Source of the DNA: Psychrobacter arcticus 273-4
GTDB lineage: Bacteria > Pseudomonadota > Gammaproteobacteria > Pseudomonadales > Moraxellaceae
Length of the DNA: 64,000 nucleotides
Direction: 5' to 3'
Assembly (NCBI RefSeq): GCF_000012305.1
Contig: NC_007204.1
Span: forward strand, 62,001-126,000
Part shown: piece after piece, positions 19,008-45,398 of the stretch
Layout: every line of letters starts with the position of its first letter
Numbering within the stretch: position 1 is the first letter of the stretch
Translations under genes and position numbers: made by a program
The notes under the pieces: model-generated
The model's input: the letters and a program-made list of their open reading frames with translations, nothing else
Database searches by the model: none
What the model was told of the DNA's origin: nothing

Positions 19008-20150
19008 ATGTCTATCGCATCTACGCAAGCGGATAAAAAGTCTAGTAATCACCCTGACAAGATTAAAATTTCGGGTGTTATTTTAGTCGATAAGCCTCAA
19101 GGTATGACTTCACAGCAAGTGGTGTCAAAGGTAAAATATTTATTCAAATCGCCTAACCATGACAGCAAAAAAGCAGGTCATACCGGAACACTTGATCCGA
19201 TGGCAACGGGGTTGTTGCCTATCTGTTTGGGTGAAGCGACTAAGTTCAGTCACTATCAGCTTGATGCGGATAAATCTTATCAAGCGACTATTTTACTTGG
19301 TAGTCAAACTGATACCGGTGATGCTGATGGACAAGTCACTGCTGAGGCAACGATTTCAGCGTTTGATGATACAATGTTAGACAAAATTGCCCAGCAGTTT
19401 CTAGGTGCCCAGCAGCAAATTCCACCGATGTATTCTGCCTTAAAAAAAGATGGCAAAAAACTCTATGAATATGCTCGTGCTGGTATTGAAGTAGACCGCC
19501 CTCCAAGAGATATTATCCTCAAAGCCATTGAGTTGAAAGCAATCGATGAGCAGCAAATACAATTGACAGTCACCTGTTCAAAAGGCACTTATGTGCGTGT
19601 GTTGGCAGAAGATATTGCCAAAGCCATAGGTACACTTGGGCATTTGACGGCACTGAGCCGTTTACAAGTGGGTGATTTTAAAATCGATGAGACAATTACG
19701 CTTGCAAATTTAGAGGCGTTGGCATTAGAACAACGTCAGACATATCTATTGCCAGTAGATGCCTGCATCGATATTAATGCTGAGCTTACATTATCATCAG
19801 AGCAGTGTGAGCGTGTGCAAATGGGTCAACGTTTGAATGTTATCGATCAGTTGACTAATGATTTGCAAAGTTATATTACATCAGCTATCGAACAGCACTT
19901 ATCTACTAGCAATAAAAACGCTGCTGTTAATCAAAATGTTGAAGATGATAACGATGATAACGATGATAACGATGATAACGATGATAACGATGATAACGAT
20001 GATAACGATGATAACGATGATAACGCGCAGCAATTGCTACATGAGATACCGGTAGATATTCGTCTTATCGATGAGCATGGAACGTTTATCGGTCTAGGGG
20101 CAGTGAGCTTAAATGGTCGATTGCAACCTAAAAAATTGATTCAGTTATAA
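19008..20150 (+). CDS. truB: tRNA pseudouridine-55 synthase TruB with an (Asp-Asp-Asn)9 insertion
   Basis: 380 residues from the ATG at 19008, behind GAAGGG; an in-frame upstream start overlaps rbfA. Makes pseudouridine 55 in the T loop. The catalytic Asp lies in GTLDPMATGLLPICLG, followed by the KSYQATILLGSQTDTGDADG loop and, in the second half, CSKGTYVRVLAEDI. The C-terminal domain is unusual. Between residues ~265 and ~350 it holds an insertion with a pure run of nine DDN triplets, after which the frame resumes with IPVDIRLIDEHGTFIGLGAV. E. coli TruB is ~314 residues, so the extra length is mostly this insertion. Confidence 0.96.
   Translation: MSIASTQADKKSSNHPDKIKISGVILVDKPQGMTSQQVVSKVKYLFKSPNHDSKKAGHTGTLDPMATGLLPICLGEATKFSHYQLDADKSYQATILLGSQTDTGDADGQVTAEATISAFDDTMLDKIAQQFLGAQQQIPPMYSALKKDGKKLYEYARAGIEVDRPPRDIILKAIELKAIDEQQIQLTVTCSKGTYVRVLAEDIAKAIGTLGHLTALSRLQVGDFKIDETITLANLEALALEQRQTYLLPVDACIDINAELTLSSEQCERVQMGQRLNVIDQLTNDLQSYITSAIEQHLSTSNKNAAVNQNVEDDNDDNDDNDDNDDNDDNDDNDDNDDNAQQLLHEIPVDIRLIDEHGTFIGLGAVSLNGRLQPKKLIQL
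19944..20024 (+). repeat. In-frame minisatellite, nine perfect copies of GATGATAAC
   Basis: Nine uninterrupted 9-bp units (81 bp) inside truB encoding nine Asp-Asp-Asn triplets. The copies show no drift, which points to recent expansion. As the unit is a multiple of three, copy-number change keeps the frame. Confidence 0.98.
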
Positions 20151-20240
20151 TTTGAGTAGGTGGATTTAGGCATTTTTATAACTCAACAGCTGTAAAACTT
20201 ACTAAGAATTCACACAAATCACATATCGTCACATTTTATT

Positions 20241-20274
20241 GCAGGTTTCACCTATAGTGAAACCTGCTTTTTTT
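20241..20274 (+). terminator. Terminator after truB
   Basis: Perfect 11-bp stem GCAGGTTTCAC/GTGAAACCTGC with a CTATA loop and seven T residues. Confidence 0.92.
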
Positions 20275-20340
20275 GTATCTTGATTAAGTCAGCTAGGGAA
20301 AGCATGACACGGATGAAAAGCATAATAAGAAAGTTAAATA

Positions 20341-20478
20341 TATAGTCGGTGAAAAGTAATATCGATACAACACGTACTACTGGTGCAAATTTTTCTTGCT
20401 TGCTGTGCCTACGCAGACAGAGGCTGCAAAAAATTTACACCAGCAATACGGTAGCGACTTTAAAGTATTTCAACTATA
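20341..20478 (+). repeat. MITE-like 138-bp palindromic repeat, copy C
   Basis: Clean copy, TATAGTCGGTGAAAAGTAAT to AAGTATTTCAACTATA, close to the consensus. It lies between the truB terminator and the 61-codon ORF whose ATG is 13 bp beyond its end; the ORF's AGGA ribosome site begins just outside the repeat. Confidence 0.93.
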
Positions 20479-20491
20479 AATAGGAATTAAT

Positions 20492-20677
20492 ATGAGCAAT
20501 TCAGTAAAAGATATGGATGAGCAAGAACAAGAGATTAATCAACTTGTAGAAGATATCAATCCTAGTGCTGACAATTCTCCTGACAGTGTAGCAGAAGCTA
20601 CCACTGCGCCGTTAGCTGAAGATGAGCTGGGCGGTACGGCTAGTGAAGATGATGTCCAAAAACATAATAAGTTTTAG
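20492..20677 (+). CDS. Small acidic protein of unknown function
   Basis: 61 residues, very acidic (Asp/Glu-rich) and with no hydrophobic segment. It begins MSNSVKDMDEQEQEINQLVE and ends in VQKHNKF. I do not recognise it. An AGGA site 7 bases before the ATG and a terminator 90 bp after the stop (20767-20802) make a coherent small transcription unit. The upstream boundary is repeat copy C. It sits between truB and rpsO, which are usually adjacent, so it is an insertion in a conserved gene order. It could be an intrinsically disordered protein. Confidence 0.6.
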   Translation: MSNSVKDMDEQEQEINQLVEDINPSADNSPDSVAEATTAPLAEDELGGTASEDDVQKHNKF

Positions 20678-20766
20678 AATATAAGGTTAGCTGCTATAGT
20701 TTCATGTTTATTTGTTGATAGGTAATAACTATTTACTCATCAATAACCATGTATTCATAAAGTCAT

Positions 20767-20802
20767 AACAAAAAACTGCTGTTAGCTCAGCAGTTTTTTG
20801 TT
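20767..20802 (+). terminator. Terminator between the small acidic ORF and rpsO
   Basis: AACAAAAAACTGCT pairs perfectly with AGCAGTTTTTTGTT (14 bp) around an 8-nt loop. The T-run is part of the stem, so it could act in both directions. Confidence 0.85.
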
Positions 20803-21014
20803 ATAATTGGCGTCATATTTAAATACGGTTTAGATTATTCTAAACGGTTTTAAATAACAGTTATGACTCATTGAGCTTGTCGTACACTAGGTCAACTCTA
20901 GTAATGCAGGGTTGTCCTGAATGACGTACAGGCTATTTTATTGACTATTCTATTGCTCCTTGATGCTTAAATTTTAAGACCATCAAGGCGCTCTTAGCAT
21001 TGCCGGAGATATTT

Positions 21015-21281
21015 ATGCTAACTAATGCCGATCGCGAACAAATCATCGCTCAATACCAACGTGGCGAAAGTGACACAGGTTCACCAGAAGTTCAAGTAGC
21101 CTTGTTAAGTGCTCGCATCAACGATCTACAAAACCATTTTAAAGCACATAAAGCGGATCATCACAGCCGCCGTGGTCTTATCCGTATGGTTAACACCCGT
21201 CGCAAACTGCTTGATTACCTAAAAAGTAAAGATCTTGGTCGCTATACCACCCTTATTAGCCAGTTAGGTCTACGTCGTTAA
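21015..21281 (+). CDS. rpsO: 30S ribosomal protein S15
   Basis: 88 residues, the family length. Contains [20 protein letters not shown], the RNA-binding [22 protein letters not shown] and the terminal ISQLGLRR. Binds helices 20-22 of 16S rRNA as a primary binder. I choose the ATG at 21015, behind GGAG at 6-7 bases, over a TTG at 21000. A terminator at 21404-21436 separates it from pnp, as in E. coli where rpsO and pnp are partly uncoupled. Confidence 0.97.
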
Positions 21282-21403
21282 TTTGGCGACAGTAGTACGA
21301 ATGGTTGCTAAAACGAAATATGCCTTAATCAGGCAGTATTTTAGATTTTTTGCGGAGCCATTTGGAACTTGCTTGTTGATATCGATAAAATAGATTTTTC
21401 TAA

Positions 21404-21436
21404 AAACGGTGTGGAATAGTTTCACGCCGTTTTTTT
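21404..21436 (+). terminator. Terminator after rpsO
   Basis: AAACGGTGTG pairs with CACGCCGTTT (one G:T wobble) around a 9-nt loop, with a run of seven T residues. Confidence 0.85.
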
Positions 21437-21906
21437 ATGCTTATCGGTATGGTGTGAGCTAAAGTACATAAATATAAGCTCATAATTGACTGATTAGTAA
21501 GTATTATTAAGAAACAGACAGTGCGGCATTTGATTGGTCAATGACCATAAATCACTGTAAAATAATGCCTTAGTAATTTTTTTGCATTGTTTATGATAGA
21601 TATATAAATAGATAAACATGCATAACTACAGTATTTAAAAGGCTCCATAGATGGAGCAGTTTTGATGCTATAAAAATTTAAATGATAGTTATAGCAAACC
21701 GAATTTTAGCATCAACCAATATGCAGGGCTAAGCGAGCTAGATAAGCCAGTTGCATAAGATAAATATTTGATAATAATAGTTTCGATAGACAAGATTTAT
21801 AAGTGTAAAGACAGTCTGTTAGAAGCTATATACCAAGAATTTTAATGACAGATATCAGTATTTTTTGTGCTGATATTATTTCGTCAGTCAATATTAGGAA
21901 AATTAT
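21437..21906. other. Long leader region upstream of pnp
   Basis: About 470 bp with no gene. It contains a compact hairpin at 21642-21657 (GCTCCA-taga-TGGAGC). In E. coli the pnp leader forms a stem that RNase III cuts for autoregulation; whether this region does so is only inference. It is otherwise AT-rich without clear signals. Confidence 0.45.
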
Positions 21907-24009
21907 ATGACAATGTTTAATACCATTAAGCGTGAATTTCAATACGGCAACCAGCAAGTTGTCATCGAAACAGGGCGTATTGCTCGCCAAGCAAACTCTA
22001 TTTTAGTACACATGGGCGGCGTTACTGTGTTGGTAGCAGCGGTTGTAAAGTCTGATGCCAAAGAAGGTCAAAACTTCTTTCCATTGACTGTCAACTACCA
22101 AGAAAAAATGTACGCTGCAGGTAAAATTCCAGGTGCTTATGGCAAGCGTGAAGGTCGTGCAAGCGAGTCTGAAACCTTAACGTCGCGTCTGATTGACCGC
22201 CCAATCCGTCCGCTATTCCCTGAAGGCTATGTAAACGAGATTCAAATCACAGCGACGGTTGTATCATCTGATAAAACTCAATCAGCAGATATCGCAGCAT
22301 TAATCGGTGCTTCAGCGGCGCTAGCTATCTCTGATGCCCCATTCAATGGTCCTGTTGCTGCCGCCCGTGTTGGTTTTATCAATGGTGAGTACGTACTGAA
22401 CCCTACTCTTGAAGAGCTTAAAGAAAGTGATCTTGATTTGGTCGTGGCTGGTACAAAGTCTGCCGTATTGATGGTTGAATCTGAAGCTGCAGAGTTATCA
22501 GAAGATCAAATGCTAGGCGCAGTATTATACGGTCATCAGCAGCAGCAAATCGTTATCGATAACATTGCCTCAATGGCAGCAGAAATTGGTACTGCTAAGC
22601 AGCAATATACCGCTCCTGTACGTGATCAAGCGTTAGAGACTGGTATGAAAGAGCAGTTTGGTGCGCAAGTATCTGATGCTTATACGATTACTGATAAGCA
22701 AGCTCGCTACAGCAAGCTTAACGAAATTAAAGACGCCGCTATTGTAGCCCTTGCTGGCGATGCTGAATCAGAAAGCTATAGTGATACAGTATCTGAGTTA
22801 AAAGAGATTTATAACGATCTAAAATATCGTACCGTTCGTGACAATATTTTGTCTGGTAAGCCACGTATTGATGGTCGTGATTTAGAGACCGTTCGTGCTC
22901 TTGATGTACAGGTTGGTGTACTACCATTTACTCATGGTTCAGCACTGTTTACACGTGGTGAAACCCAAGCCTTGGTAACGACTACCCTTGGTAATACTCG
23001 TGACGTCAATATGATTGACTCGCTAGCGGGTACGATTCGTGACCATTTCATGTTGCATTACAACTTTCCGCATTTCTCAGTAGGCGAAACGGGTCGTGAA
23101 GGTATTCCTAAACGTCGCGAAATTGGTCATGGTCGTCTAGCACGCCGTGGTGTACAAGCGATGCTGCCTGATAGCGACCGCTTCCCGTATGTCATCCGTG
23201 TGGTATCTGAGATCACTGAATCAAACGGTTCATCATCAATGGCTTCTGTTTGCGGCGCGAGCTTGGCATTGATGGACGCTGGTGTACCAATTAAAGCACC
23301 AGTTGCTGGTATCGCCATGGGTCTGGTCAAAGAAGGCGAGCGTTTCGCGGTATTGTCTGACATCTTAGGTGATGAAGATCATCTTGGCGATATGGATTTT
23401 AAAGTTGCTGGTTCTAAAGATGGTATTACTGCCCTGCAGATGGATATTAAAATTGAAGGTATTACACCAGATATCATGGAGCAAGCGTTAAAACAAGCCC
23501 ATGCTGGTCGTATTCATATCCTAGACGCGATGAACAAAGTATTGCCTGAGAGCCGTACTGAAATCAATGCTCATGCGCCTAATTATGCAGTAATTGAGAT
23601 CAATCCAGACAAAATCCGTGACGTTATCGGTAAAGGTGGCGCGACGATTCGTCAGCTAACTGAAGAAACTGGTGCGGTTATTGATATCGATGATGCGGGT
23701 ACTATTCGTATCTTTGGTGAAAACAAAGCGGCAACTAAAGCAGCGATTGCTAAAATCGAAGCAATCACGGCAGAAGTTGAAGTGGGTAAAACCTATGAAG
23801 GTACGGTCGCTCGTATCGTCGACTTCGGTGCTTTTGTTAACGTATTACCAAATACTGATGGCCTCGTCCATATCTCACAAATCGCTGATGAGCGCGTAGA
23901 AAACGTTTCTGACTATCTAAAAGAAGGTCAAATCGTGAAAGTACTGGTACAAGACGTTGATAATCGTGGTCGTATCAAGTTGACTATGAAAGGTATTGAG
24001 CAAAGCTAA
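21907..24009 (+). CDS. pnp: Polyribonucleotide nucleotidyltransferase (PNPase)
   Basis: 700 residues. Two RNase PH-like domains flank an all-helical linker. The first begins [20 protein letters not shown]; the second includes [20 protein letters not shown] domain near residue 560: [21 protein letters not shown]1 domain at the end: [19 protein letters not shown] and [14 protein letters not shown]. PNPase degrades RNA 3'-5' with phosphate, works in the degradosome and is needed for growth in the cold in several bacteria. AGGA precedes the ATG. A second ATG two codons later is also possible. Confidence 0.98.
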
Positions 24010-24038
24010 TGCTTGATATTTGATAGCGTTAACATTTA

Positions 24039-24093
24039 GAAAACCGCTTTGGGTGGCTTATTATCATTATAAGTGCCTAAGGCGGTTTTTTTA
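24039..24093 (+). terminator. Terminator after pnp
   Basis: AAACCGC pairs with GCGGTTT and the longer arms (GGGTGGCTTA / TAAGTGCCTA) can pair inside, giving a long imperfect stem followed by seven T residues. Confidence 0.75.
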
Positions 24094-24111
24094 TGGGCGT
24101 AAAGAATAACT

Positions 24112-24134
24112 GACTTTAAAGTATTTCAACTATA
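24112..24134 (+). repeat. Solo 23-bp end fragment of the MITE-like repeat
   Basis: GACTTTAAAGTATTTCAACTATA is identical to the right end of the 138-bp repeat, with no other repeat sequence attached. It is an exact inverted copy of the start of repeat copy D (24268-24290), with 133 bp between them. Confidence 0.85.
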
Positions 24135-24267
24135 CCATCACGGCAAGCACGATAGTAACGTTGGTAATTATCAGGATATAGGGTTTTCGCTCGAGTAAGA
24201 ATAGGATCTAAAAGGAGAGCAGCGCTATTAACAGGCACTATTAGCAGCTGAGCACTGCTATTTAGAA

Positions 24268-24405
24268 TATAGTTGAAATACTTTAAAGTCGCTACCGTAT
24301 TGCTGGTGTAAATTTTTTGCAGCCTCTGTCTGCGTAGGCACAGCAAGCAAGAAAAATTTGCACCAGCAGTACCTGTTGTATCGATATTACTTTTCACCGA
24401 CTATA
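24268..24405 (-). repeat. MITE-like 138-bp palindromic repeat, copy D
   Basis: Full copy in minus orientation, TATAGTTGAAATACTTTAAA to TTTTCACCGACTATA. It abuts a hairpin (24405-24445) just past the 3' end of the minus-strand gene at 24461. Confidence 0.93.
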
Positions 24406-24445
24406 GAGGTATGAGTGAATGGCAAAGATGCCATCATCAACCTCT
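24405..24445 (-). other. Stem-loop without T-run, next to repeat copy D
   Basis: Read on the minus strand: AGAGGT, then ATGGCA-tctt-TGCCAT, then ACCTCT, a two-step hairpin 15 bp after the stop of the 24461 gene. The place where a terminator T-run would be is occupied by the start of repeat copy D. Confidence 0.6.
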
Positions 24446-24460
24446 TTATAAAAGCATACG

Positions 24461-25066
24461 TTAGTTAGCGTTGGTTTTAGCCGCAGTATCAGCCTCTAAT
24501 TGGGCAATTTGTTGCTCAAGTAGTGCGATTTCTTGAGCCTTAAGTTCAGTCAACTGTTTGGTCATGGCAATCTGTTCAGCAGCGAGCTTTTCTTGTCCGG
24601 CTAAGCGCTTACGTTCATCTTCTAAGCGATCAATTTCTTCTTTGGCTAAGCTGTTCGTTTTTGGCAATGGCGCTTTTAAGATAGCTTTAGGGTCAGGGAT
24701 GTTAGCACTTGTCGTAGTTAGGTCAGCTTTATTCTGAGCTAACGTAGTATCATTGGTTTCCAAGTAGCTATTGTCTAAAGCACTATTTTCTAAGCTACCA
24801 GTTTCTAGGCTACCAGTGTCTAAGTCACTTGCGGCACTATCTAATAGTAAGGCATCGGTTTGGCTAGCTGGTGTTTCTTCGGTAGTCGTAGGTAATTGTT
24901 CGGCATCAGTGGTATTGGTTTGGGGCACCGTGCCTTTCCAAACCAAATAGCCGATCAATAGCACAATCAATAGAATACCAAACCACCATTTTTGACGTGG
25001 CTTAGCAGAATGGGTAGATTGTTTCGAAACTTTATTAAATAAAAGACGCATTTTCTTGCTTTTCAT
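24461..25066 (-). CDS. Single-pass membrane protein with C-terminal coiled coil, unknown function
   Basis: 201 residues that I do not recognise as a named family. A basic N-terminus precedes one membrane helix near residues 27-44 (WWFGILLIVLLIGYLVWK). A Thr/Ser/Asp-rich linker follows, including a short repeat of S-L-E-T-G type (residues ~80-100). Then comes a Glu/Leu/Gln/Ala-rich coiled coil from ~135 to ~195 (KLAAEQIAMTKQLTELKAQE). The topology suggests an N-in anchor with a long soluble tail. It follows yheV on the same strand after about 150 bp. Confidence 0.65.
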   Translation of the reverse strand: MKSKKMRLLFNKVSKQSTHSAKPRQKWWFGILLIVLLIGYLVWKGTVPQTNTTDAEQLPTTTEETPASQTDALLLDSAASDLDTGSLETGSLENSALDNSYLETNDTTLAQNKADLTTTSANIPDPKAILKAPLPKTNSLAKEEIDRLEDERKRLAGQEKLAAEQIAMTKQLTELKAQEIALLEQQIAQLEADTAAKTNAN

Positions 25067-25217
25067 ATCACAGTCAATTTAGGTTAACAATATCAGTTGC
25101 CATACTATAGCAAACTCAAAATAAAATGCCTATCTATTGCTAGATAGGTGAGTGCATACCGTACTATTTACAGTAACTATGAGGTATGACTGTTTGATGG
25201 TCAAAATTTAAGTGGTT

Positions 25218-25472
25218 TTATTTAAATTTGACCGTGCCACTGGTTCCGGTGATCATAGCATCACGAGTGAGTTGGTCTTCAAGATGGTTCTTTGCACTGA
25301 TAGCATCAGGATCAGGACGATGTTCGGTATGTCCGCACAGCGTACATTCAATATATTCATCAGGTGCAGGGGTGACGATATTTATTTGTACTACCGAATC
25401 CATGATCTGACATTTCGGACAGCGAACGCCTGCTAAAAACTGCCGCTTTGGGCGCGTTGATTGATAGCGCAT
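25218..25472 (-). CDS. yheV: YheV-family putative zinc-ribbon protein
   Basis: 84 residues. The N-terminal RPKRQFLAGVRCPKCQIMD and central YIECTLCGHTEHRPDP give two CxxC knuckles (CPKC and CTLC) of a zinc ribbon, the layout of E. coli YheV. Function unknown. The ATG at 25472 directly follows the prlC stop codon (TAAATG on the coding strand), so it is translationally linked to prlC. The C-terminal ~20 residues are longer than in E. coli. Confidence 0.85.
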   Translation of the reverse strand: MRYQSTRPKRQFLAGVRCPKCQIMDSVVQINIVTPAPDEYIECTLCGHTEHRPDPDAISAKNHLEDQLTRDAMITGTSGTVKFK

Positions 25473-27698
25473 TTATATCACCTTACGAGTTGTTTGGGCA
25501 TTGGCAGCCGTACTGTTTTTAGTCTGGTTGTTAGTATCAGCAAAACCGCTATGACGTAACAGAGCCTCAATACTGGCACTGCGACCACGGAAGTTCTCAA
25601 AATTCACCTTAGCTGGAAAACTACCACCAACGGACAAGATGGTCTCACGGAAGGCTTTACCTGTGATAGGGTTAAAAACACCTTCTTCTTCAAACTTACT
25701 AAAGGCATCGGCAGATAACAGCTCTGCCCATTTATATGAGTAATAACCAGCGGCATAACCACCGGCAAAGATGTGACTAAAGCCATTGGCAAAGCGGTTG
25801 TAATCAGGCGTCTGCACAATGGCAATATCATCACGTACGCTGTTAAGGGTAGTCAAGATACCTTTATAATCAAGCACTGGTGTCTGCGCATGAATCAACA
25901 AGTCAAACAAGGCAAATTCGATTTGACGGAGCGTTTGTAGTCCACTTTGGAAGTTTTTGACTGCCAATAGCGCATCAAGCTTATCTTTAGGCAAGGGCGC
26001 GCTCGTTTCGACATGACTGCTAATAAGAGCAATACCTTCCGCATCCCATGCCCAGTTTTCCATAAACTGGCTTGGCAGCTCGACGGCGTCCCATTCTACG
26101 CCATTGACGCCAGCAACATCACCAATGGTTACTTGAGTCAACAGATGATGTAAACCGTGACCGAACTCATGGAATAAGGTGACAACTTCATCATGAGTCA
26201 ATAAGCTTGGCTTACCATCGAGTGCTGGGGTAAAGTTGCCCACCATAAAGCACACTGGTAGCTGCTGATGATCTTGCTTATTATAACTATAACGCGACTG
26301 AAAGCCACTCATCCAAGCACCGCCGCGTTTACCACTACGGGCAAATAAATCAAAGTAGAAACCACCAAGCAAATTGTCATCAGCATCGAATAATTGATAA
26401 AAACGGACATCATCGTGCCAACGTGATGCTAATGATTTGTCTGTACTATTATTTGCGCTGTCATTACTTTGCTCTTGTACTTTGATACCGTATAAACGCT
26501 CAACGATAGCGAATAACCCGCTAATCACTCTTGGTAATGGGAAGTACGAGCGAATTTCTTCTTGTGATAAGCTAAACTCACTTTGTTTTACCTTTTCGGC
26601 GATATAAGCACTGTCCCACGGCTGTAAATCTTTAATACCGTAATCTTGCGCGTACTTTTGCAATTGTGCCAAATCTTGCTCAGCAGTTGGCGTTGCTTGC
26701 ACAGCTAAATCACGCAAAAAGGTTTCCACTTCCGCCACGCTATCTGCCATTTTGGTGGATAGCGATACTTCTGCATAGTTATTAAAACCCAGTAATTTGG
26801 CTTTTTGCTCACGTAACTGCAAAATCTGACTCATGATATCGGCGTTATTGAGCGATTCTCCTTTGGCATTGGTATGCTCATCAAACTCAGAGGCGCGGGT
26901 GACATAGGCGCGATATAACGTCTCGCGTAGATGGCGATCATCGGCATGGGTCATGATGGCAAGATATACAGGCATATTTAAGCTTGCCACATAATACGGG
27001 CTTGGCAATGCATCAACCTCTGTTTGCGTGAGCGAACCATTTGCAAGCTGGTTTGTTTTGTACTGCTCACCTGCATCAGCTACTAATGCCAAGCCACTGT
27101 CGGTCAAGCCTGTCAACTGCTCTTGTTTAAGCGGTAAAACATAAGCTTGAGTAGCATCTAAGACATGGTCTGAAAAAGTGGCTGACAACGTAGACAGCTG
27201 GCTTTGAATGGTAGCAAATTTGTCTTGTTCTGTTTTAGGTAGTGCGACCCCTGATAACTCAAAGCTGCGTAGCGCAAGCTCAATAGCTCGTGCTCTAGCA
27301 GGCTCAAGCGTTGCAAAGAATGCTTTATCATTGATAATCGCTTGATAACGGCTAAATAGCGGCTGATGCTGCCCAACTCGCGTACCATAGGCAGACAGCT
27401 TTGGTAGCAGCTCATGATGGACATGACGAATCTCATCGTTACTCATCACGCTATTAAGATGCGACAAAATTCCCCAGCTGCGATCCAGTGCTAGGTTGAT
27501 ATGGTCAAAGTCTTTTATATCGGTTAGCGCTTGCTCAGCGTCTATCGGGGTAGACGCTTCCTTGGTCTCTGTCATCACCGTTAATTCATCTAAAAATGCA
27601 TTAGCCGCGTCAATGGCGCTAATAACTTGCTGTTGTAAGGTACTTGGCGCAGGATCTGCAAAATCGACAAGATGTAACTCTGAAGAAATAGAAGTCAT
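25473..27698 (-). CDS. prlC: Oligopeptidase A (M3 metallopeptidase)
   Basis: Cytosolic thimet-type zinc peptidase that degrades oligopeptides, including cleaved signal peptides. 741 residues; E. coli PrlC is 680, and the extra length includes loops such as the Asn/Ser-rich stretch near residue 420. The zinc site HEFGHGLHHLL is intact, followed by the distal ENWAWDAEG element carrying the third ligand Glu. C-terminal features are FSHIFAGGYAAGYYSYKWAE and LRHSGF. The ribosome site at the ATG is weak. yheV begins directly after its stop. Confidence 0.95.
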   Translation of the reverse strand: MTSISSELHLVDFADPAPSTLQQQVISAIDAANAFLDELTVMTETKEASTPIDAEQALTDIKDFDHINLALDRSWGILSHLNSVMSNDEIRHVHHELLPKLSAYGTRVGQHQPLFSRYQAIINDKAFFATLEPARARAIELALRSFELSGVALPKTEQDKFATIQSQLSTLSATFSDHVLDATQAYVLPLKQEQLTGLTDSGLALVADAGEQYKTNQLANGSLTQTEVDALPSPYYVASLNMPVYLAIMTHADDRHLRETLYRAYVTRASEFDEHTNAKGESLNNADIMSQILQLREQKAKLLGFNNYAEVSLSTKMADSVAEVETFLRDLAVQATPTAEQDLAQLQKYAQDYGIKDLQPWDSAYIAEKVKQSEFSLSQEEIRSYFPLPRVISGLFAIVERLYGIKVQEQSNDSANNSTDKSLASRWHDDVRFYQLFDADDNLLGGFYFDLFARSGKRGGAWMSGFQSRYSYNKQDHQQLPVCFMVGNFTPALDGKPSLLTHDEVVTLFHEFGHGLHHLLTQVTIGDVAGVNGVEWDAVELPSQFMENWAWDAEGIALISSHVETSAPLPKDKLDALLAVKNFQSGLQTLRQIEFALFDLLIHAQTPVLDYKGILTTLNSVRDDIAIVQTPDYNRFANGFSHIFAGGYAAGYYSYKWAELLSADAFSKFEEEGVFNPITGKAFRETILSVGGSFPAKVNFENFRGRSASIEALLRHSGFADTNNQTKNSTAANAQTTRKVI

Positions 27699-27881
27699 AA
27701 AGGGGTTCGCTATAAATAATGAGTGTTATGAGTAAACTGCTTTAATTTGGCGTAATTATTTAAACCGTCGAATAGCGTTATTGCTCGCATTCTTAATAAA
27801 TTTGATCAGTATAAAAATGTGTCAAAATCAAGTACCTCGATGTGAGGATAATAGTTATGGTGTATTCGATAATCACTATTG

Positions 27882-28019
27882 TATAGTTGAAATACTTTAC
27901 TGTCGCTACCGTATTACTGGTGTAAATTTTTTGCAGCCTCTGTCTGCGTAGGCACAGCAAGCAAGAAAAATTTGCACCAGTAGTACGTGTTGTATCGATA
28001 TTACTTTTCACCGACTATA
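27882..28019 (-). repeat. MITE-like 138-bp palindromic repeat, copy E
   Basis: Full copy in minus orientation with private changes (ACTTTACTGTCGC for ACTTTAAAGTCGC, and TATTACTGG for TATTGCTGG). It lies between prlC (minus) and the Balon-like gene (plus), about 300 bp upstream of the latter. Confidence 0.93.
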
Positions 28020-28322
28020 GTATGTAAATGATGGGTCTTTATTGGTGAAAATACAAGCTGAGAACTTAAGCTTTATCGCACTGTTAACCAACTTACATTT
28101 ATTAAGGTTGTTGTGGCAGACTTTGATACCATTTACAAAGCGTCATCATTTGCTTGCAAATTAACCCTATAGATTATGAGGTCAAGTTGATAGGGTTATA
28201 GAATAACTGATGTTATTACGAGTATGCCGTCGCCATATAGCAAAAATATAGAATAACTAACAGGCAAGGCATACCAAAAGTAGTACTGGAAATTCATGGT
28301 CATAAAACAAGGAGCAGTATTT
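28020..28322. other. Upstream region of the Balon-like gene
   Basis: About 300 bp with no gene. It holds an inverted repeat GTATGCC (28222-28228) / GGCATAC (28268-28274) and a near-duplicated TATAGAATAACT motif, both in the last 130 bp before the start codon. They may form a structured 5' leader; I cannot assign a promoter. Confidence 0.45.
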
Positions 28323-29435
28323 ATGAAAGCAACCCTCAAAAGCTTACGCGAGACAAAGGCGAATCCAGCAGTCAGTATTTTTGTCAAAACGCACCGCGAA
28401 CACCCTGCCAATGACAAAGACCCTATTGCCCTAAAAAACCAATTAAAAGTCGTCGAAGAACGTCTAACCAATGAGTATGACAAGCGTACAGCGACCACTA
28501 TCTTAGACAATATCCATGCTAAGACTAAAGAGCATAATCATAATCTTAATCTAGATACGTTAGCTATCTTTGCCAGTACTGACGACGTACAAGTGATTCG
28601 TATGCCCATTGATACCACTGAGCGCGTGGTCATCTCACATCGCTTTGCGACCCGTGATTTGGTGCGTGACATGGCAAGTGCTGTGCATTATTATACTTTG
28701 GTATTGACTCGTGATAAGGCGCGTTTAATTGAAGTCTCTAATGATCGCGTGATACGAGAATTCGATCTAGACGATACTGCCCAAAACAATATGGAAAATA
28801 TTCCATTCCCTATCGACAATAATGGACTTCATACGACAAGCGATGGTGGATCAGATCGCTCAGCAAATAATGACAGCAGCGCGTTAAAAGAGTTCTTTAA
28901 CCAAGTAGATAAGAGTGTTCAAGAACTGTGGGGCGAGCATAAAATGCCACTCGTTGTCGTTGGCGATACCAAAAATATTGGCTACTATAAAGATGTTTGT
29001 GACCGTCCGGATAATATCATCGCTACGGTATCAAATGCCACCAATCTAGAAGAGGGTAGTGCGCAGCATATTATCAACAGTGTACAAGAAGCAGTAGAAG
29101 GTTATCGTACCTCGCTACACCAAGCGGCACTGGGTGAGATTGATAAAGCGCGCGGGGCAAATAGACTACAGACTGATTTGCAAGAAGTCTATCGTAGTGC
29201 TTTTCAGGGCGTAGGCGATACTTTGTATGTCCGCCGTGGTTATATTCAACCGGCTAAAATTGATGAAAAAGCGCAAACGCTAAGTCTTGCTGATGATTCA
29301 GGCGCAGAAGGTATCACTGATGATGCCATTGGTGAAATCATTGAGCATGTCATTCATAATGGCGGCAAAGCGGTATTTATGCCACAAGATATTATGAGTG
29401 AAGACCAACCGATTGCTCTTGTCACCCGCTATTAA
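28323..29435 (+). CDS. Balon-like ribosome hibernation factor (bacterial eRF1/Pelota homologue)
   Basis: 370 residues from ATG 28323, which has AAGGAG 8 bases upstream; an in-frame upstream start is less likely. Three-domain eRF1/Pelota-like architecture by inspection. Domain 1 spans ~1-120 (MKATLKSLRETKANPAVSIF). The central domain (~122-265) opens HYYTLVLTRDKARLIEV and is broken by an acidic Ser/Asn/Gly linker (~165-187). The L7Ae-like C-domain (~270-370) contains LYVRRGYIQPAKID and ends ITDDAIGEIIEHVI...FMPQDI...IALVTRY. There is no GGQ tripeptide, so peptide release is not expected. Balon from cold-shocked P. urativorans binds the ribosomal A site with EF-Tu; assignment here is from recognised family pattern and genus. 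Confidence 0.78.
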   Translation: MKATLKSLRETKANPAVSIFVKTHREHPANDKDPIALKNQLKVVEERLTNEYDKRTATTILDNIHAKTKEHNHNLNLDTLAIFASTDDVQVIRMPIDTTERVVISHRFATRDLVRDMASAVHYYTLVLTRDKARLIEVSNDRVIREFDLDDTAQNNMENIPFPIDNNGLHTTSDGGSDRSANNDSSALKEFFNQVDKSVQELWGEHKMPLVVVGDTKNIGYYKDVCDRPDNIIATVSNATNLEEGSAQHIINSVQEAVEGYRTSLHQAALGEIDKARGANRLQTDLQEVYRSAFQGVGDTLYVRRGYIQPAKIDEKAQTLSLADDSGAEGITDDAIGEIIEHVIHNGGKAVFMPQDIMSEDQPIALVTRY

Positions 29436-29630
29436 TAGATGGCTTAGGCTCAGTAACGAATTAGCCATTGGTCATTGATAGCACATGGGTATAGTATGAG
29501 AGCATTGGTTCAATATGAGCCAATGCTCTTTTTATATGTATGGTTTTATAGTGCCTCGATTATATTTCAAACGATTATTTTTTATTTTAAGCCGGCCATA
29601 TTCAATACCTACTCTATAAATACTGAGTTT

Positions 29631-30404
29631 ATGACTAATACTATTATGACTAATACCACCTCTTTTCTACTCACAAGCTATAACATTCATAAAGGCATGT
29701 CGCCGATGAATCGCCAAGTCAAAGTTCAGGGTATTGCCCAAGCGCTTGATATTATTGGTTCCGACATACTCTGCCTACAAGAAGTACAAGGGCAAAACCT
29801 CAAGCGCAATATTCAGTATAATGAATACCCTGACCAGTCTCAGCACGAATGGTTTGGTGAATATTTGCAACTAGAAAACAGTTATGGCAAAAATTCAGAA
29901 TACGAAAACGGTCATCATGGCAATGCCGTATTGAGCCGATTTCCGCTTGATCCCAAGCATAACGTCAATATTACGGTTAATAAGCTTGAGCAGCGCGGGG
30001 TTTTACACTGTGAAGTGCAGCCGGTAGGTTGGAATGTGCCAGTGGTGGTTTTATGTGCCCATTTAAACCTATTTGAGCGCGATCGTATCAAGCAATATGA
30101 AGCGATTGTTAACTATGTCCGAGATGAGATTGCACCTGATCAGCCATTGATTTTGGCAGGAGATTTTAATGATTGGAAAAAAATGTCTTGTGATAAGCTG
30201 GCATCGAATTTGGGCATGACCGAAGCTTTTAAACATTGTCATGGCAAGCTGCTGCCAACATTTCCAGCGAAGTTACCTGTGCTAAGCTTAGATCGTATCT
30301 ATGTACGTAATCTGAGAATAAAAGACGCTTGGGTACATACGGGTAAACCGTGGTCAACCCTGTCTGATCATCTGCCTTTGAGTGCAGAATTGGCATTGCC
30401 TTAG
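29631..30404 (+). CDS. Endonuclease/exonuclease/phosphatase (EEP) family protein
   Basis: 257 residues from ATG 29631. The frame extends upstream to 29475 through hydrophobic, non-conserved codons, and ATG 29646 is also possible because no start has a strong ribosome site. EEP-fold motifs: LTSYNIHKGM (Asn of motif 1), DILCLQEVQG (catalytic Glu), NGHHGNAVLSRFP, LAGDFNDWKK (metal-binding Asp and Asn) and SDHLPLSAEL (terminal Asp-His pair). The family includes DNA-repair nucleases and phospholipid or nucleotide phosphohydrolases. Substrate cannot be inferred, though short members next to transporters are often phosphodiesterases. It lies ~200 bp after the Balon-like gene. Confidence 0.85.
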   Translation: MTNTIMTNTTSFLLTSYNIHKGMSPMNRQVKVQGIAQALDIIGSDILCLQEVQGQNLKRNIQYNEYPDQSQHEWFGEYLQLENSYGKNSEYENGHHGNAVLSRFPLDPKHNVNITVNKLEQRGVLHCEVQPVGWNVPVVVLCAHLNLFERDRIKQYEAIVNYVRDEIAPDQPLILAGDFNDWKKMSCDKLASNLGMTEAFKHCHGKLLPTFPAKLPVLSLDRIYVRNLRIKDAWVHTGKPWSTLSDHLPLSAELALP

Positions 30405-30463
30405 AGTAAAAAACCAATAATGGAATAAATAACGCTAAACAGTAAAATAAAAAAGGATGATAA

Positions 30464-31462
30464 ATGATGTCTGATAAACAAATCCCAAAGACCCAGCATG
30501 CGGTACTCATATGTGAGTTTGGTGCACCTGAAGTCATGACGTACCAAGATGATGTCGCCGTACCTGAATTGACAGATGATCAAGTGCTGGTAAAAATTGC
30601 TTACGCAGGTATCAATCCTGTCGATTATAAAACCCGTCAAGGTAAAGGTTGGGGCGCTGCCAATATCAAAAAAGATAAGTTTGATCATAATCAGCCCGCG
30701 ATTTTAGGTTTTGATATGTCAGGCACAGTGGTCAAAAGCCGTAGCACAGATTTTGTGGTTGGTGATAAAGTGGCGGCATTAACCTTTAACGGTGGATGCT
30801 ATGCTGAATATGTCGCTGTCGATGCCAAAATGCTGGCACGTGTACCTAAAACTGTTACCTTAGAGCAGGCAGGCGCACTGCCTTGTATTGGACAAACAGC
30901 GCTACAATTTGTTGAGTTTGCCGACATAAAAGAGGGCGAGCATGTAGTGATGAACGCCCCAGCAGGCGGTGTTGGTCATTTATTGATACAGCTTTTGATA
31001 GATAAAGTTGCCAAAAACAATGTTAAAGTCACGCTTATTTGTTCAGCAGAAAAGTATGAAAAACTGGATAGCTTGATAGACACCAGCCAGCTTGCAGGCT
31101 GGATTGATTACACCAAGGACGAAACGTTCCCTGAGCTGCAAGCTGATGTGCTACTGGATTTGGTCGGTGATGAAGCTGGTGTACGAGCGCTGAACGTTGT
31201 GAAAGATTCTGGGCGTGTGTATGTGCTACCAACGATTTGGGTAGATAAGCTTAAAGAGGCAGGCAGTCAAAAAAATCTAAGCGTTGAGGGCTATGCGGCT
31301 CAGCGTAATGGCGAAGACATGGCGCGTGTTTTACAGCTTGTGGCAGATGGTCAGCTGACTTTACGTTTGCAAAAGACCTATCCATTAGCAGAAGTGATTG
31401 CTGCCCATCATGAGCTGCAAAAAGGCGATGCTTTTGGTAAATTGGTGTTAAAAGTCAGCTGA
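30464..31462 (+). CDS. NADPH-dependent quinone oxidoreductase-type protein (zinc-free MDR)
   Basis: 332 residues of the medium-chain dehydrogenase/reductase superfamily. The GroES-like N-domain has AYAGINPVDYKTRQGKGW and ILGFDMSGTVVKSR. The Rossmann domain has APAGGVGHLLIQLL as its nucleotide-binding turn. Zinc-ligand motifs of alcohol dehydrogenases are absent, which places it with quinone reductases and related enone reductases. AAGGA precedes the start; a second ATG follows immediately. The gene starts 60 bp after the EEP gene, so the two may be co-transcribed. Substrate unknown. Confidence 0.88.
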   Translation: MMSDKQIPKTQHAVLICEFGAPEVMTYQDDVAVPELTDDQVLVKIAYAGINPVDYKTRQGKGWGAANIKKDKFDHNQPAILGFDMSGTVVKSRSTDFVVGDKVAALTFNGGCYAEYVAVDAKMLARVPKTVTLEQAGALPCIGQTALQFVEFADIKEGEHVVMNAPAGGVGHLLIQLLIDKVAKNNVKVTLICSAEKYEKLDSLIDTSQLAGWIDYTKDETFPELQADVLLDLVGDEAGVRALNVVKDSGRVYVLPTIWVDKLKEAGSQKNLSVEGYAAQRNGEDMARVLQLVADGQLTLRLQKTYPLAEVIAAHHELQKGDAFGKLVLKVS

Positions 31463-31497
31463 GTCAAATTTAATTCATTGCTAGGTTTAGTTAATAG

Positions 31498-32115
31498 CTA
31501 GCTTTGATTATTGGAATATATCTGGCGAAAGGTTAGGCTAATACGTCCTGTAGCTACCGTTTTAGTTTTGGTAATGCTATGCTTCCAAAAGCTCTGAGTA
31601 TCACCGTGCATGACAATGAGCTGACCTGACTCAAGATAGAGCTCGACTTTATCTTGAGTTTTTTTATGCTTAAAGACAAATTTCCGTGTAGCACCGAGCG
31701 ATAACGAAGCAATAACCGGCTGCTCACCGAGCTCTTTTTCATCATCGTCATGATAGCCCATGCCGTCATCGCCAGAAGGATAATAGTTGAGTAAGCACGA
31801 ATTGAAATTAGCATCAATTCCAAGCGCTGATAACTGCTGCTCAACATGTTGTTTCACATGAAACATAGTATCCGTCCATGGTATCGTTTGACGCCTATGA
31901 CCAGAGTACTGATAGTCAATATTGCTATCACCCATCCAAACGATTTGACGCGTCGTAATATGCGTCTTACCAAATAAAGTGACGATATCCGCTTGCCAAG
32001 GTAGCTCGGTCACTAGGTTATAAAATAAGGAGCTGGGATAATCAATAACAATCCCTAAGTTATTTACCTGTCCGTCATAAGGCAATAGATTGATGCGATT
32101 TATGAATGCTTCCAT
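31498..32115 (-). CDS. alkB: AlkB-like 2-oxoglutarate/Fe(II) dioxygenase
   Basis: 205 residues. The jelly-roll core shows MGYHDDDEKELGEQPVIASLSLG, with the Fe ligands His and Asp, and the distal HSITKTKTVATGRISLTFR with the third His and the 2-oxoglutarate Arg. The length and the LNYYPSGDDGMGYH pattern fit the AlkB family in Proteobacteria that resembles human ALKBH2/3. Such enzymes repair N1-methyladenine and N3-methylcytosine by oxidative demethylation. It lies 49 bp upstream of the ABC exporter's 3' end on the same strand and converges with the oxidoreductase gene. Confidence 0.9.
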   Translation of the reverse strand: MEAFINRINLLPYDGQVNNLGIVIDYPSSLFYNLVTELPWQADIVTLFGKTHITTRQIVWMGDSNIDYQYSGHRRQTIPWTDTMFHVKQHVEQQLSALGIDANFNSCLLNYYPSGDDGMGYHDDDEKELGEQPVIASLSLGATRKFVFKHKKTQDKVELYLESGQLIVMHGDTQSFWKHSITKTKTVATGRISLTFRQIYSNNQS

Positions 32116-32164
32116 ACAATAAACACGTCCCTGTGAAAGGTTATTGTTAATAAAGCGCTTTTAA

Positions 32165-34078
32165 TTAACTGTCTTCACCTAAGAAGCCACCGCTTTGACG
32201 ATGCCACAAGCGTGCATAGACGCCATGTAGATTCAATAGCTCGTCATGACTGCCTTGCTCAATGATTTGACCTTTATCCATCACCACCAGTCTATCAAGA
32301 GCAGCAATGGTTGATAAGCGATGGGCGATAGCAATAACCGTCTTGCCAGTCATAATATCGTTTAAGCTTTCAGTAATTGCAAATTCAATCTCAGAGTCAA
32401 GAGCGCTGGTGGCTTCATCTAATAATAAAATCGGCGCGTTTTTTAGCATAACACGAGAGATGGCAATACGCTGACGTTGACCACCAGAAAGTTTGACGCC
32501 GCGTTCACCAACTTGGGTATCAAGTCCAGTATTGCCTTTATCATCATATAAGTCTTTGATAAAGTCCCATGCTTGGGCTTGTTTTGCCGCGATGACAATC
32601 TCCTCATCAGTGGCATCCGGACGACCATAAGCGATGTTTTCGCGCACGGTACGATGTAATAAAGAGGTATCCTGGGTGACCATACCGATTTGCTGACGTA
32701 ATGATTCTTGGGTAACTTCATCAATCGCTTGCCCATCAATAAAAATCTTACCGCCATCGACATCAAAAAAGCGCAGTAGCAGATTGACCAAAGTGGATTT
32801 ACCGGCACCTGAGCGCCCAACCAGACCGATTTTTTCGCCCGGTTTGATGTCTAGATAAAAGTTGTCAAGCAGCTTTATGGTAGAGATACTGGCGTTATTG
32901 ATGCAATAGCCATTGATATCATTGCTATTGCTAGCCTCGTTATCATCATTATTTTCATAACTAAAATTAACATTGTCGAAGACAATACGTCCATTAGTGA
33001 CATCTAACGCAGGTGCATTTGGCTTATCAGTAATCATTTGCGGTGCAGATAAAGTATGCATGCCATCTTGTACCGTACCGATACTTTCAAACAAACTTGC
33101 TGTCTCCCACATTATCCAGCGCGTTAAACCATTTAAGCGTAGTGCCATGGCGGTTGCAGCGGCAATAGCACCGACACCAATCGCGTCTTGTTGCCATAAA
33201 TACAAGCCAATACCAGCAGTACTACTGACCAAAACAACACTAATCAAATGCGTTGAAAATTCAAGATAGCTGACCCAGCGCATCTGTGCATGGACGGTAC
33301 CCAAAAACTGCCCCATAGCGTTTTTGGCGTAACTGAGCTCACGGCGCGAGTGGCTGAACAGCTTGACGGTCATAATATTGGCGTAAGCATCAGTGATGCG
33401 CCCCGTCATCAAGGCGCGAGCATCCGCTTGTACGATAGCTGTCTGTTTGAGCTTAGGAATAAAAAACCACATTGCGAGACAAACCAGTACAAACCACGCG
33501 ATAAAGGGTATTAATAATAGACTATCAAGATTAAAGAGAATAATGCCTGAGGTGATAAAATAGACTGCGACATACATAAACATGTCGGTAACTGTCATAA
33601 CGGTATCACGTACTGCCAATGCCGTTTGCATTACCTTTGCTGAGACACGACCAGAAAACTCATCTTGATAAAACTGCATCGATTGTCCAAGCATGCGCTG
33701 ATGAAAACGCCAGCGCATCTGCATAGGGAATACCCCTTGCAAGGTCTGAAAATGGATAAACGATGACAAGGCAATCCATAATGGGCTGACGATCATCACC
33801 GCCAGCATGAGTAGCAGCATGTCGCCTTTTTCTAGCCACAGATTTTCCGGCGTATAAACCCCAAGCCAATCGACGATATTACCAATCCAAGCAAAGAGCA
33901 TGGCTTCGTAAATACCAATACCCGCTGACAAAATCATAAACAGCAGTAGCCAGCCGCGTAGACCGTTAGTACATGCCCACAAAAATTTCAGCATACCATC
34001 ACGAGGTGAGGGTAGCGGCATCGGTGTTTCAGGGAAGGCAGGTAGGCGATTTTCAAAAAAGTGAAATAGAGTGTTCAT
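32165..34078 (-). CDS. ABC exporter, fused membrane and ATPase domains
   Basis: 637 residues from ATG 34078; a frame from 34129 uses a TTG. Six membrane helices occupy about residues 35-310 (first near GWLLLFMILSAGIGIYEAML). The nucleotide-binding domain has Walker A GLVGRSGAGKSTLVNLLL, signature LSGGQRQRIAISR, Walker B ILLLDEATSALD and H-loop IAHRLSTI. This is the MsbA/multidrug type half transporter that works as a homodimer. An Asn/Asp/Ser-rich loop of about 25 residues (NNDDNEASNSNDIN) sits at the start of the ATPase domain. Substrate unknown. No strong ribosome site. Confidence 0.92.
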   Translation of the reverse strand: MNTLFHFFENRLPAFPETPMPLPSPRDGMLKFLWACTNGLRGWLLLFMILSAGIGIYEAMLFAWIGNIVDWLGVYTPENLWLEKGDMLLLMLAVMIVSPLWIALSSFIHFQTLQGVFPMQMRWRFHQRMLGQSMQFYQDEFSGRVSAKVMQTALAVRDTVMTVTDMFMYVAVYFITSGIILFNLDSLLLIPFIAWFVLVCLAMWFFIPKLKQTAIVQADARALMTGRITDAYANIMTVKLFSHSRRELSYAKNAMGQFLGTVHAQMRWVSYLEFSTHLISVVLVSSTAGIGLYLWQQDAIGVGAIAAATAMALRLNGLTRWIMWETASLFESIGTVQDGMHTLSAPQMITDKPNAPALDVTNGRIVFDNVNFSYENNDDNEASNSNDINGYCINNASISTIKLLDNFYLDIKPGEKIGLVGRSGAGKSTLVNLLLRFFDVDGGKIFIDGQAIDEVTQESLRQQIGMVTQDTSLLHRTVRENIAYGRPDATDEEIVIAAKQAQAWDFIKDLYDDKGNTGLDTQVGERGVKLSGGQRQRIAISRVMLKNAPILLLDEATSALDSEIEFAITESLNDIMTGKTVIAIAHRLSTIAALDRLVVMDKGQIIEQGSHDELLNLHGVYARLWHRQSGGFLGEDS

Positions 34079-34360
34079 AGGCAATAGCAATACGTCAAGA
34101 TAAGCGTGAGTAGACACCGTCTTGAGCAATTATATAAGTGAGTAAGTAGTGTGCTATTTTAGCAAATCTTAACCACCACGCTTACAGACTAATTGTAATT
34201 TGAACGCAGCAGACACTAATTCCGATATCTTATGACTCATAAAGATAAATGGCTTGCTGCATACGACCTATATTGTTACATTCTATGATTTTCTTTGATT
34301 TTAAGATCAACACTGATATAGAGATATCCTCAACATGATGGATGATTAAGGAAAAAAGTT

Positions 34361-35209
34361 ATGATGTATTTAACGATAGCGGTGCTATGTAGCGTTGCTG
34401 TCTCTGTGCTACTCAAAGTATTGCGCCAACGTGATATCGATATCCGTCAAACCATCGTTGCTGGTTATCCAGTCGCCTTTTTGCTGACGTGGTTGTTATT
34501 GAAGCCGGATATTAGTGGCATGAGCGCCCTTGGCGGAGCGTGGGCTATTATTATCGCCCTTGGTGTGCTGTTGCCAGCGGTGTTTATCATTCTTGGGCGC
34601 GCGATTGAGGCGGTCGGTATGGTAGCCACCGATGCCGCTCAGCGTTTATCGTTAATTATTCCTATTGTCTCGGCATTTCTCTTATTTGGAGAAGTATTGA
34701 CAGGCACACGTGTTTTCGGCTTATTGCTTGGATTTTTGGCACTTGGGGCGCTGATTTACCATCCGCATCAGGGTCAGATTAGCAAACAAGCCAAACATAC
34801 ACCGCTATGGTTGTTTGGCGTCTGGGCAGGCTATGGCATTATTGATATTTTATTCAAACAAGTCGCTAAGCAAGGTGCTGCCTTTCCGCTGACACTATTT
34901 GTCAGTTTTGGCTTAGCGGCTTTATTGCTGCTTATTTATCTGTTGATCAACCGCGTCCGCTGGCAGGGTAATGCCCTTGCGGCAGGAATCTTACTAGGTG
35001 CACTAAATATGGGCAATATTTATGCTTATATCCGTGCCCATCAAGTATTGTCCGAATCGCCAAGTATTGTTTTTACCGCTATGAACGTTGGCGTAATTGC
35101 TGTTGCTACTCTTATTGGTATTGGGGTATTTAAAGAATCGCTCAACCGTATGAATATCGTAGGTTTATTATTGGCGATTTGCTGTGTGGCAGTCTTGTTT
35201 TTGGCTTAA
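34361..35209 (+). CDS. DMT-superfamily (EamA-like) permease
   Basis: 282 residues, almost entirely hydrophobic, with about ten membrane helices in two five-helix halves joined near residue 145 (IYHPHQGQISKQAKHTP). The layout is that of EamA/DMT metabolite exporters. Each half ends with a motif of the family (RVFGLLLGFLALGALI and NRMNIVGLLLAICCVAVLFL). The start has AAGGAAAA upstream and a second ATG follows. Substrate unknown. Monocistronic, about 280 bp from the divergent ABC exporter. Confidence 0.85.
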   Translation: MMYLTIAVLCSVAVSVLLKVLRQRDIDIRQTIVAGYPVAFLLTWLLLKPDISGMSALGGAWAIIIALGVLLPAVFIILGRAIEAVGMVATDAAQRLSLIIPIVSAFLLFGEVLTGTRVFGLLLGFLALGALIYHPHQGQISKQAKHTPLWLFGVWAGYGIIDILFKQVAKQGAAFPLTLFVSFGLAALLLLIYLLINRVRWQGNALAAGILLGALNMGNIYAYIRAHQVLSESPSIVFTAMNVGVIAVATLIGIGVFKESLNRMNIVGLLLAICCVAVLFLA

Positions 35210-35382
35210 ATGCTTTTGGTTTAATAGGGGCATGGCGCCAATTTTATAGGTGCTTTTGCTGTTCAGATATAGGCACATATAGCATCCTATGGTAAGGTTA
35301 TCTACGAACGGTTAGATCAATATCAGCTAAAGATCTCATTTGTGACACTTGATCTTAATAAATAAAACAGGATGCTCTTTCC

Positions 35383-36273
35383 ATGGAATACCAAAAGCAA
35401 TTACAACGTATCAAAAATGGTTCAGGATTTATCGCCGCCCTTGACCAAAGTGGTGGCAGTACGCCAAAAGCGTTAGAGAACTACGGGGTTATGGGCGATG
35501 CCTATGACAATGACGAAGCCATGTTTGACCAAGTGCATGAGATGCGAGTGCGTATCATGACGTGCGACTGCTTTGATAATGAGCGTGTGCTTGGTGCGAT
35601 TTTGTTCGAAGATACCATGGAACGAGCAGTCAATGGTAAGCCAACGGGCAACTATTTATGGGAAGACAAGCAAATCGTCCCATTTTTAAAGGTCGATAAA
35701 GGCTTAGCAGAACGTATGAATGGCGTGCAAGTCATGCGTCCGATACCTAATTTAGACTTATTATTGGATAAGGCAAAAACCTATTCAGTATTTGGCACTA
35801 AAATGCGCTCTGTGATTTACGAGCCAAATGTCGATGGCATTGAGCTGGTCGTCCAGCAGCAGTTTGATGTGGCAAAGCAAATCCTATCAAAGGGTTTGAT
35901 GCCTATCGTTGAGCCAGAAGTGGATATCAATAGCGCGCAAAAGCATGACTGTGAGCTGATGCTTAAAGCCAGTATCTTGCGTCATCTTGAGCGCTTAAAC
36001 GATGAGCAACAAGTGATACTTAAGCTGACTTTGCCTGAAGAAGCAGGATTTTATCAAGAACTGATGGACCATCCAAAAGTGCTTAAAGTGGTCGCATTAT
36101 CAGGTGGCTATAGCCGCACAGATGCCTGCGCGAAACTTAAGCAAAACCCAGGTATGATTGCGAGCTTCTCGCGTGCCTTTACCGAAGGCTTAAGCAAACA
36201 GCAAAGCGATCAAAAATTTGCCGATACCATTAATACTTCGATTGATGAGATTTATCAGGCGTCTAAAGTTTAA
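35383..36273 (+). CDS. fda: Class I fructose-bisphosphate aldolase
   Basis: 296 residues, the bacterial single-domain class I type. Starts with GSGFIAALDQSGGSTPKALE. The Schiff-base region is in VILKLTLPEEAGFYQEL near residue 215, with PIVEPEVDI and VVALSGGYSRTDAC following. The enzyme splits fructose 1,6-bisphosphate into the triose phosphates used by TpiA and runs in reverse in gluconeogenesis. AGGA lies 10 bases before the ATG. A bidirectional terminator at 36313-36354 ends it. Confidence 0.94.
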   Translation: MEYQKQLQRIKNGSGFIAALDQSGGSTPKALENYGVMGDAYDNDEAMFDQVHEMRVRIMTCDCFDNERVLGAILFEDTMERAVNGKPTGNYLWEDKQIVPFLKVDKGLAERMNGVQVMRPIPNLDLLLDKAKTYSVFGTKMRSVIYEPNVDGIELVVQQQFDVAKQILSKGLMPIVEPEVDINSAQKHDCELMLKASILRHLERLNDEQQVILKLTLPEEAGFYQELMDHPKVLKVVALSGGYSRTDACAKLKQNPGMIASFSRAFTEGLSKQQSDQKFADTINTSIDEIYQASKV

Positions 36274-39210: not shown

Positions 39211-39348
39211 TATAGTTGAAATACTTTAAAGTCGCTACCGTATTGCTGGTGTAAATTTTTTGCAGCCTCTGTCTGCGTAGGCACAGCAAGCAAGAAAAAT
39301 TTGCACCAGCAGTACGTGTTGTATCGATATTACTTTTCACCGACTCTA
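39211..39348 (-). repeat. MITE-like 138-bp palindromic repeat, copy F
   Basis: Full copy, minus orientation; the far end reads CCGACTCTA instead of CCGACTATA. It lies 17 bp upstream of the yggX start codon, and argH lies on its other side. Confidence 0.93.
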
Positions 39349-41097: not shown

Positions 41098-41168
41098 CCT
41101 ACGCAGACAGAGGCTGCAAAAAATTTACACCAGCAATACGGTAGCGACTTTAAAGTATTTCAACTATA
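41098..41168 (+). repeat. Half copy of the MITE-like repeat (copy G)
   Basis: 71 bp from CCTACGCAGACAGAGGCTGC to CAACTATA. The break point is at the central loop, so exactly the right half remains; the sequence to its left is unrelated. It lies between argH and hemC. Confidence 0.9.
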
Positions 41169-45260: not shown

Positions 45261-45398
45261 TATGGTTGAAATACTTTAAAGTCGCTACCGTATTGCTGGT
45301 GTAAATTTTTTGCAGCCTCTGTCTGCGTAGGCACAGCAAGCAAGAAAAATTTGCACCAGTAGTACCTGTTGTATCGATATTACTTTTCACCGACTATA
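45261..45398 (-). repeat. MITE-like 138-bp palindromic repeat, copy H
   Basis: Full copy, minus orientation, with one end changed to TATGGTTG. It ends two bases before the ribB stop codon (45401-45403, minus strand). Confidence 0.93.

Follow-up and report, generated by a model that had tools for sequence, protein, structure and literature searches.

Psychrobacter arcticus 273-4 (NC_007204.1) is the strain in which a balon knockout was described, and bacterial ribosomes are reported to be parked by Balon during cold and starvation (PMC10901736). Whether the gene at 28323..29435 encodes this factor, how its product may act on the ribosome and what may drive its expression are the questions raised by this locus. 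The window, that is the whole stretch of DNA analysed, comprises 64,000 nucleotides (bases 62001-126000 of the single contig of 2,650,701 bases that was scanned as the genome), and positions refer to the window unless marked otherwise. Coordinates of the features are collected in Table 1.

Table 1. Features of the balon locus and copies of the dispersed repeat in the window.
Feature	Position	Strand	Remarks
balon	28323..29435	+	370-aa aeRF1-type ribosome hibernation factor, ~41.4 kDa, pI ~5.3
N-terminal part, residues 1-121	28323..28685	+	108/121 identical to solved Balon (89.3%); decoding-centre-binding by homology
Middle domain, residues 122-296	28686..29210	+	baeRF_family3 (PF18845, 110.4 bits); 141/175 identical (80.6%)
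C-terminal part, residues 297-370	29211..29432	+	56/74 identical (75.7%); EF-Tu-contacting by homology
Terminator-like hairpin	29498..29530	+	15 pairs, then Ts; 63 nt past the balon stop codon
Conserved block, TTACAAA-N5-ATCATTTGC-TTGCAAA	28133..28160	+	two TTRCAAA repeats 21 bp apart; probable activator site
TGATAGGGT, instance of TGnTAnnnT	28188..28196	+	fixed 27 nt after the block; putative extended -10
138-nt repeat, full-length copies	3852-3989, 10948-11084, 20341-20478, 24268-24405, 27882-28019, 39211-39348, 45261-45398, 56153-56290
138-nt repeat, partial copy	41098-41168		71 nt

Identity of the gene product

The open reading frame is intact and without internal stop codons, in agreement with the 370-residue protein initially proposed. 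A longer start at the in-frame ATG 28296, nine codons upstream of 28323, was considered and rejected because AAGGAG lies shortly 5' of ATG 28323 and the alignment begins with residue 1 of solved Balon. At the other end of the gene, the terminator-like hairpin suggests that balon transcription may stop there, a type of evidence that is weak when taken alone since the region holds two such sites compared to 1.0 expected.

When compared by phmmer with solved structures, the protein matched three PDB entries, the best match being 8rd8_B (E 2.1e-205, 684.6 bits, residues 1-370 against 1-369), and the sole two other rows were S12-type ribosomal proteins with E values of 0.2 and 1.5. On the strength of the match itself and of the depositions that belong to the paper, we take 8rd8, 8rdv and 8rdw to be Balon of P. 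urativorans. The initial annotation had named an alignment with this protein and the Pfam baeRF profiles as checks, and both bore it out. Identity to 8rd8_B amounted to 305 of 370 residues (82.4%) with a single one-residue gap, was high in all three domains, and left 65 positions that differ (one of them the gap), in proportion most in the C-terminal part. Among the Pfam profiles, baeRF_family3 scored best, far above its gathering score of 31.5, and its match at residues 122-296 was used to set the limits of the three parts. Furthermore, the NCBIfam equivalog NF052287, "AOC03_06830 family ribosome hibernation factor", was matched over the whole model at 513.6 bits (cut-off 330), and no difference from this family was seen; AOC03_06830 is named as Balon of P. 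urativorans in PMC10901736. As NF052287 lies far over its cut-off and the alignment with solved Balon runs end to end, the label 'Balon-like' given at first was an understatement for what is a Balon ortholog. We put the probability that 28323..29435 encodes Balon at about 97%, its steps on the ribosome being derived from the ortholog. The molecule name of chain B in PDB entry 8rd8 is 'Methyl-accepting chemotaxis protein', by which name-based searches may be misled.

Two other readings were weighed. A Pelota/Dom34-like rescue factor, which would split or clear stalled ribosomes instead of preserving them, would have the three-domain superfamily and the missing GGQ in common with our protein, and a Dom34-like non-catalytic function was among the proposals made in 2019 for the baeRF-1 clade (PMC6514570). 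Such a role is nevertheless very improbable in view of the end-to-end orthology with a protein whose structure was determined in hibernating ribosomes, where it occupies the A site, and of the altered growth of the P. arcticus deletion on recovery from dormancy (PMC10901736). That the protein belongs to another baeRF family and merely resembles Balon is more improbable still: families 6, 7, 11 and 8 do score above their own Pfam cut-offs, at 27-34 bits, but family 3 is ahead by 77 bits, NF052287 stands 184 bits above its cut-off, and four relatives from the same order outside the window's family remain below that cut-off (e.g. L131, 23% identical).

The identification of 28323..29435 as balon is correct, and the family, the ribosome-bound structure and a deletion in the genus are already published; since the protein is already known, little is added as discovery, and the case illustrates that Balon is recognisable from raw sequence without tools. 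The gene is probably the one that was knocked out in P. arcticus for the Balon paper. As reported there, the deletion mutant grew slightly above the wild type in optimal conditions, whereas after three months' dormancy it displayed a visible growth defect on day one and a slower return to stationary phase on day two, with rRNA levels comparable to those of the wild type (PMC10901736).

Motifs and proposed action on the ribosome

aeRF1 and Pelota (Dom34) have the three-domain layout and A-site binding in common with Balon at an identity of about 10%, and Balon is described as differing from them in the lack of GGQ and NIKS and in its association with EF-Tu(GDP), where the others rely on a delivery factor bound to GTP (PMC10901736). 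In our protein GGQ, the catalytic motif of aeRF1-class release factors, is missing as initially noted, and NIKS is likewise absent from its 370 residues. Over its whole length it resembles P. urativorans Balon in the three domains, the absence of both motifs and the HP dipeptide at residues 27-28. NIKS was found in none of 79 distinct aligned rows, the window's included, and GGQ occurred in two of them (L047, residue 347; L120, residue 337), in both cases in the C-terminal part, where it is probably a chance occurrence.

The HP dipeptide lies inside HREHPAND (residues 24-31), and His27-Pro28 is identical in 8rd8_B; we infer that it is the HP motif of the Balon paper. Across 21 aligned relatives 22 columns were invariant, including P15, H24, R25, P28, N30, D33 and R134. 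H27 is not invariant: among 12 of the aligned rows, L105, L119 and L121 carry FP and L120 carries SP, and FP is also found in L123. Not every member of the wider group therefore has the HP dipeptide.

The linker at residues 165-187 fits its initial description as an acidic Ser/Asn/Gly segment: of its 23 residues 5 are Ser, 4 Asn and 3 Gly, with 4 Asp against a single Arg. It does lie in the domain that would hold GGQ, within the baeRF_family3 match. The linker is poorly conserved and is directly followed by a highly conserved segment: in 70 Psychrobacter-like rows the window's residue was kept on average in 69% of cases in the linker, in 83% over residues 122-296 and in 96% over residues 188-206. 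The middle domain aligns without gaps to 8rd8_B. The linker is a plausible candidate for the lasso loop.

By analogy with the ortholog, the N-terminal domain would contact the decoding centre via the HP motif and leave the mRNA untouched, as is reported for Balon (PMC10901736). The middle domain would be placed against the peptidyl-transferase centre, where the lasso loop would replace GGQ and the trapped bL27 tail would keep the centre inert; in the published structure the loop takes the place of GGQ at A2602, and the bL27 tail is trapped (PMC10901736). The C-terminal domain would contact EF-Tu(GDP), a contact also described for Balon, and A-site binding together with EF-Tu(GDP) under stress has been described for the ortholog, and in vitro also for a homologue from mycobacteria (PMC10901736). 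The predicted outcome is a ribosome that is inactive yet preserved and to which HPF/RaiA could bind too. RaiA and Balon can occupy one ribosome together (PMC10901736), and a joint block of the A site by GGQ-less baeRF proteins and HPF was already proposed in 2019 (PMC6514570).

Distribution and neighbourhood

The genome of the window contains one Balon gene, which is its one baeRF_family3 match, and no paralogue was found in it. It also holds one S30AE match, HPF/RaiA, which likewise serves ribosome hibernation but belongs to a separate protein family, and no match to RMF. Among 149 genomes of the window's family, 61 exceeded the NF052287 cut-off. The window's genus accounts for 41 of these and three other genera for 20 (13 of g10, 5 of g15 and 2 of g7), and weaker matches came from three more genomes, one of g2 and two of g15 with fragments. 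Across the order 9 of 293 genomes exceeded the cut-off, all of them of the window's family, and relatives below it were present in four genomes outside that family. Potential archaeal homologues of Balon have also been mentioned (PMC13324472).

The two g15 fragments (G110:C1:878260-878541 and G143:C88:224940-225221) are short, balon-like and carry two TAG stops. Five other g15 genomes have balon over the cut-off without stops. The balon gene has apparently decayed in these two genomes.

Of 76 loci, the neighbourhood was compared in 69, all of named Psychrobacter and above 12 kb in length. Divergent oligopeptidase A and DUF2387 genes stand beside balon in every one of them, 63 also contain a gene of the endonuclease/exonuclease/phosphatase family, and the window's whole nine-gene order is kept in 41. 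The HPF gene is distant from balon in the genome, beside an rpoN-like frame as judged by eye from translated frames. Across the genus the neighbourhood of balon is stable; it does not form a stress operon and does not lie beside raiA/hpf, in which Psychrobacter differs from the typical Balon neighbourhoods reported in PMC10901736.

By the same reading by eye, the HPF/RaiA gene in the piece at genome 243500-247500 adjoins rpoN-like and sigma-factor-like frames.

Conserved block upstream of balon and the dispersed repeat

Alignment of 80 upstream regions revealed that most of the 300 nt 5' of balon have diverged, and that the parts kept are approximately the last 30 nt and positions 28133-28196, which comprise the TTRCAAA block, ending 162 nt 5' of the start codon, and the TGnTAnnnT element. 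Of 81 distinct upstream regions from Psychrobacter, 70 contain the 12-mer TTTGCTTGCAAA with no more than one mismatch (56 of them exactly), 6 contain it with two or three mismatches, and 5 lack it. In nine rows from other genera it occurred only with two or three mismatches at scattered places, or not at all, and these matches look like chance. In 73 of the 76 rows with the 12-mer, its TTGCAAA is preceded by TTACAAA at exactly 21 bp, and TGnTAnnnT follows exactly 27 nt after the 12-mer in 74, compared to one match in total at 29 other offsets (15-44). The two rows without TGnTAnnnT are L067 and L081, and in the latter the 12-mer is a three-mismatch match far upstream. The TTRCAAA block and TGnTAnnnT thus stand at a fixed distance in 74 of the 81 regions, which are related and hence do not count as independent; the surrounding sequence, however, has diverged.

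Moreover, searching 30 genomes of the genus for the 28-nt pattern with at most three mismatches detected it in 26, whereas a reversed control gave 0 of 30. Of its 27 sites, 26 lie 151-512 nt before balon on the same strand, and the fetched piece around the remaining one is without balon. Two of the four genomes without the pattern (G008 and G128) do carry balon. In the window's genome, the direct repeat with at most two mismatches was found at 15 places compared to 7 for the reversed control, and no regulon is claimed; balon's site is the only one with as few as one mismatch. An inverted repeat, TAACCCTAT/ATAGGGTTA, which the window shares with its closest relative just after the block, was dropped because TAGGGT is kept in only 3 of 76 rows, while TAGCAT is found in 55 of 76.

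What this block does can be read from its arrangement. The 28-nt block is probably an activator site: an activator would bind the pair of TTRCAAA repeats, which are spaced by two helical turns and lie about 45-70 bp upstream of the predicted transcription start. TGnTAnnnT would serve as an extended -10 element without a good -35 box, and transcription would start near 28203, so that the mRNA leader would measure about 120 nt in the window and as much as several hundred nt in relatives, which is also the case for cold-shock genes. A sigma-70 scan that required two hexamers had no hit at the block (6 promoter-like sites compared to 6.3 expected), which argues against a standard promoter there, and the fixed distance of TGnTAnnnT makes the extended -10/activator reading more probable. 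We regard the complete reading, in which balon would be driven by a distal extended -10 promoter, an activator on the TTRCAAA repeats and a long leader, as a tentative one with a chance slightly below even. Since no equally good second site was found in the genome, the regulator may serve balon alone.

The predicted RNA fold of 28131-28322 is ordinary (z -1.79), 12 of 200 shuffled sequences being equally well folded, and for this reason we do not claim a structured leader. Likewise, no Rfam element reached its gathering score in 20000-36000. The words promoter, upstream and regulon are absent from the main text of PMC10901736, a statement that applies to that paper only. The promoter-like block represents a small, testable lead on the control of Balon expression.

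A 138-nt repeat is dispersed in the window in eight full-length copies, 93-100% identical, in addition to the partial one. It starts with TATAGT and ends with ACTATA, with a long internal hairpin in between, and a narrow search for literature on P. arcticus with the term 'miniature inverted-repeat' found none. In its structure the repeat resembles a Correia-type MITE. A further copy lies about 0.4 kb downstream of the HPF/RaiA gene (L177). Across the 2.65-Mb genome, a 23-nt core of the repeat has 313 matches (158 + 155) with at most three mismatches, compared to 0 for the reversed control.
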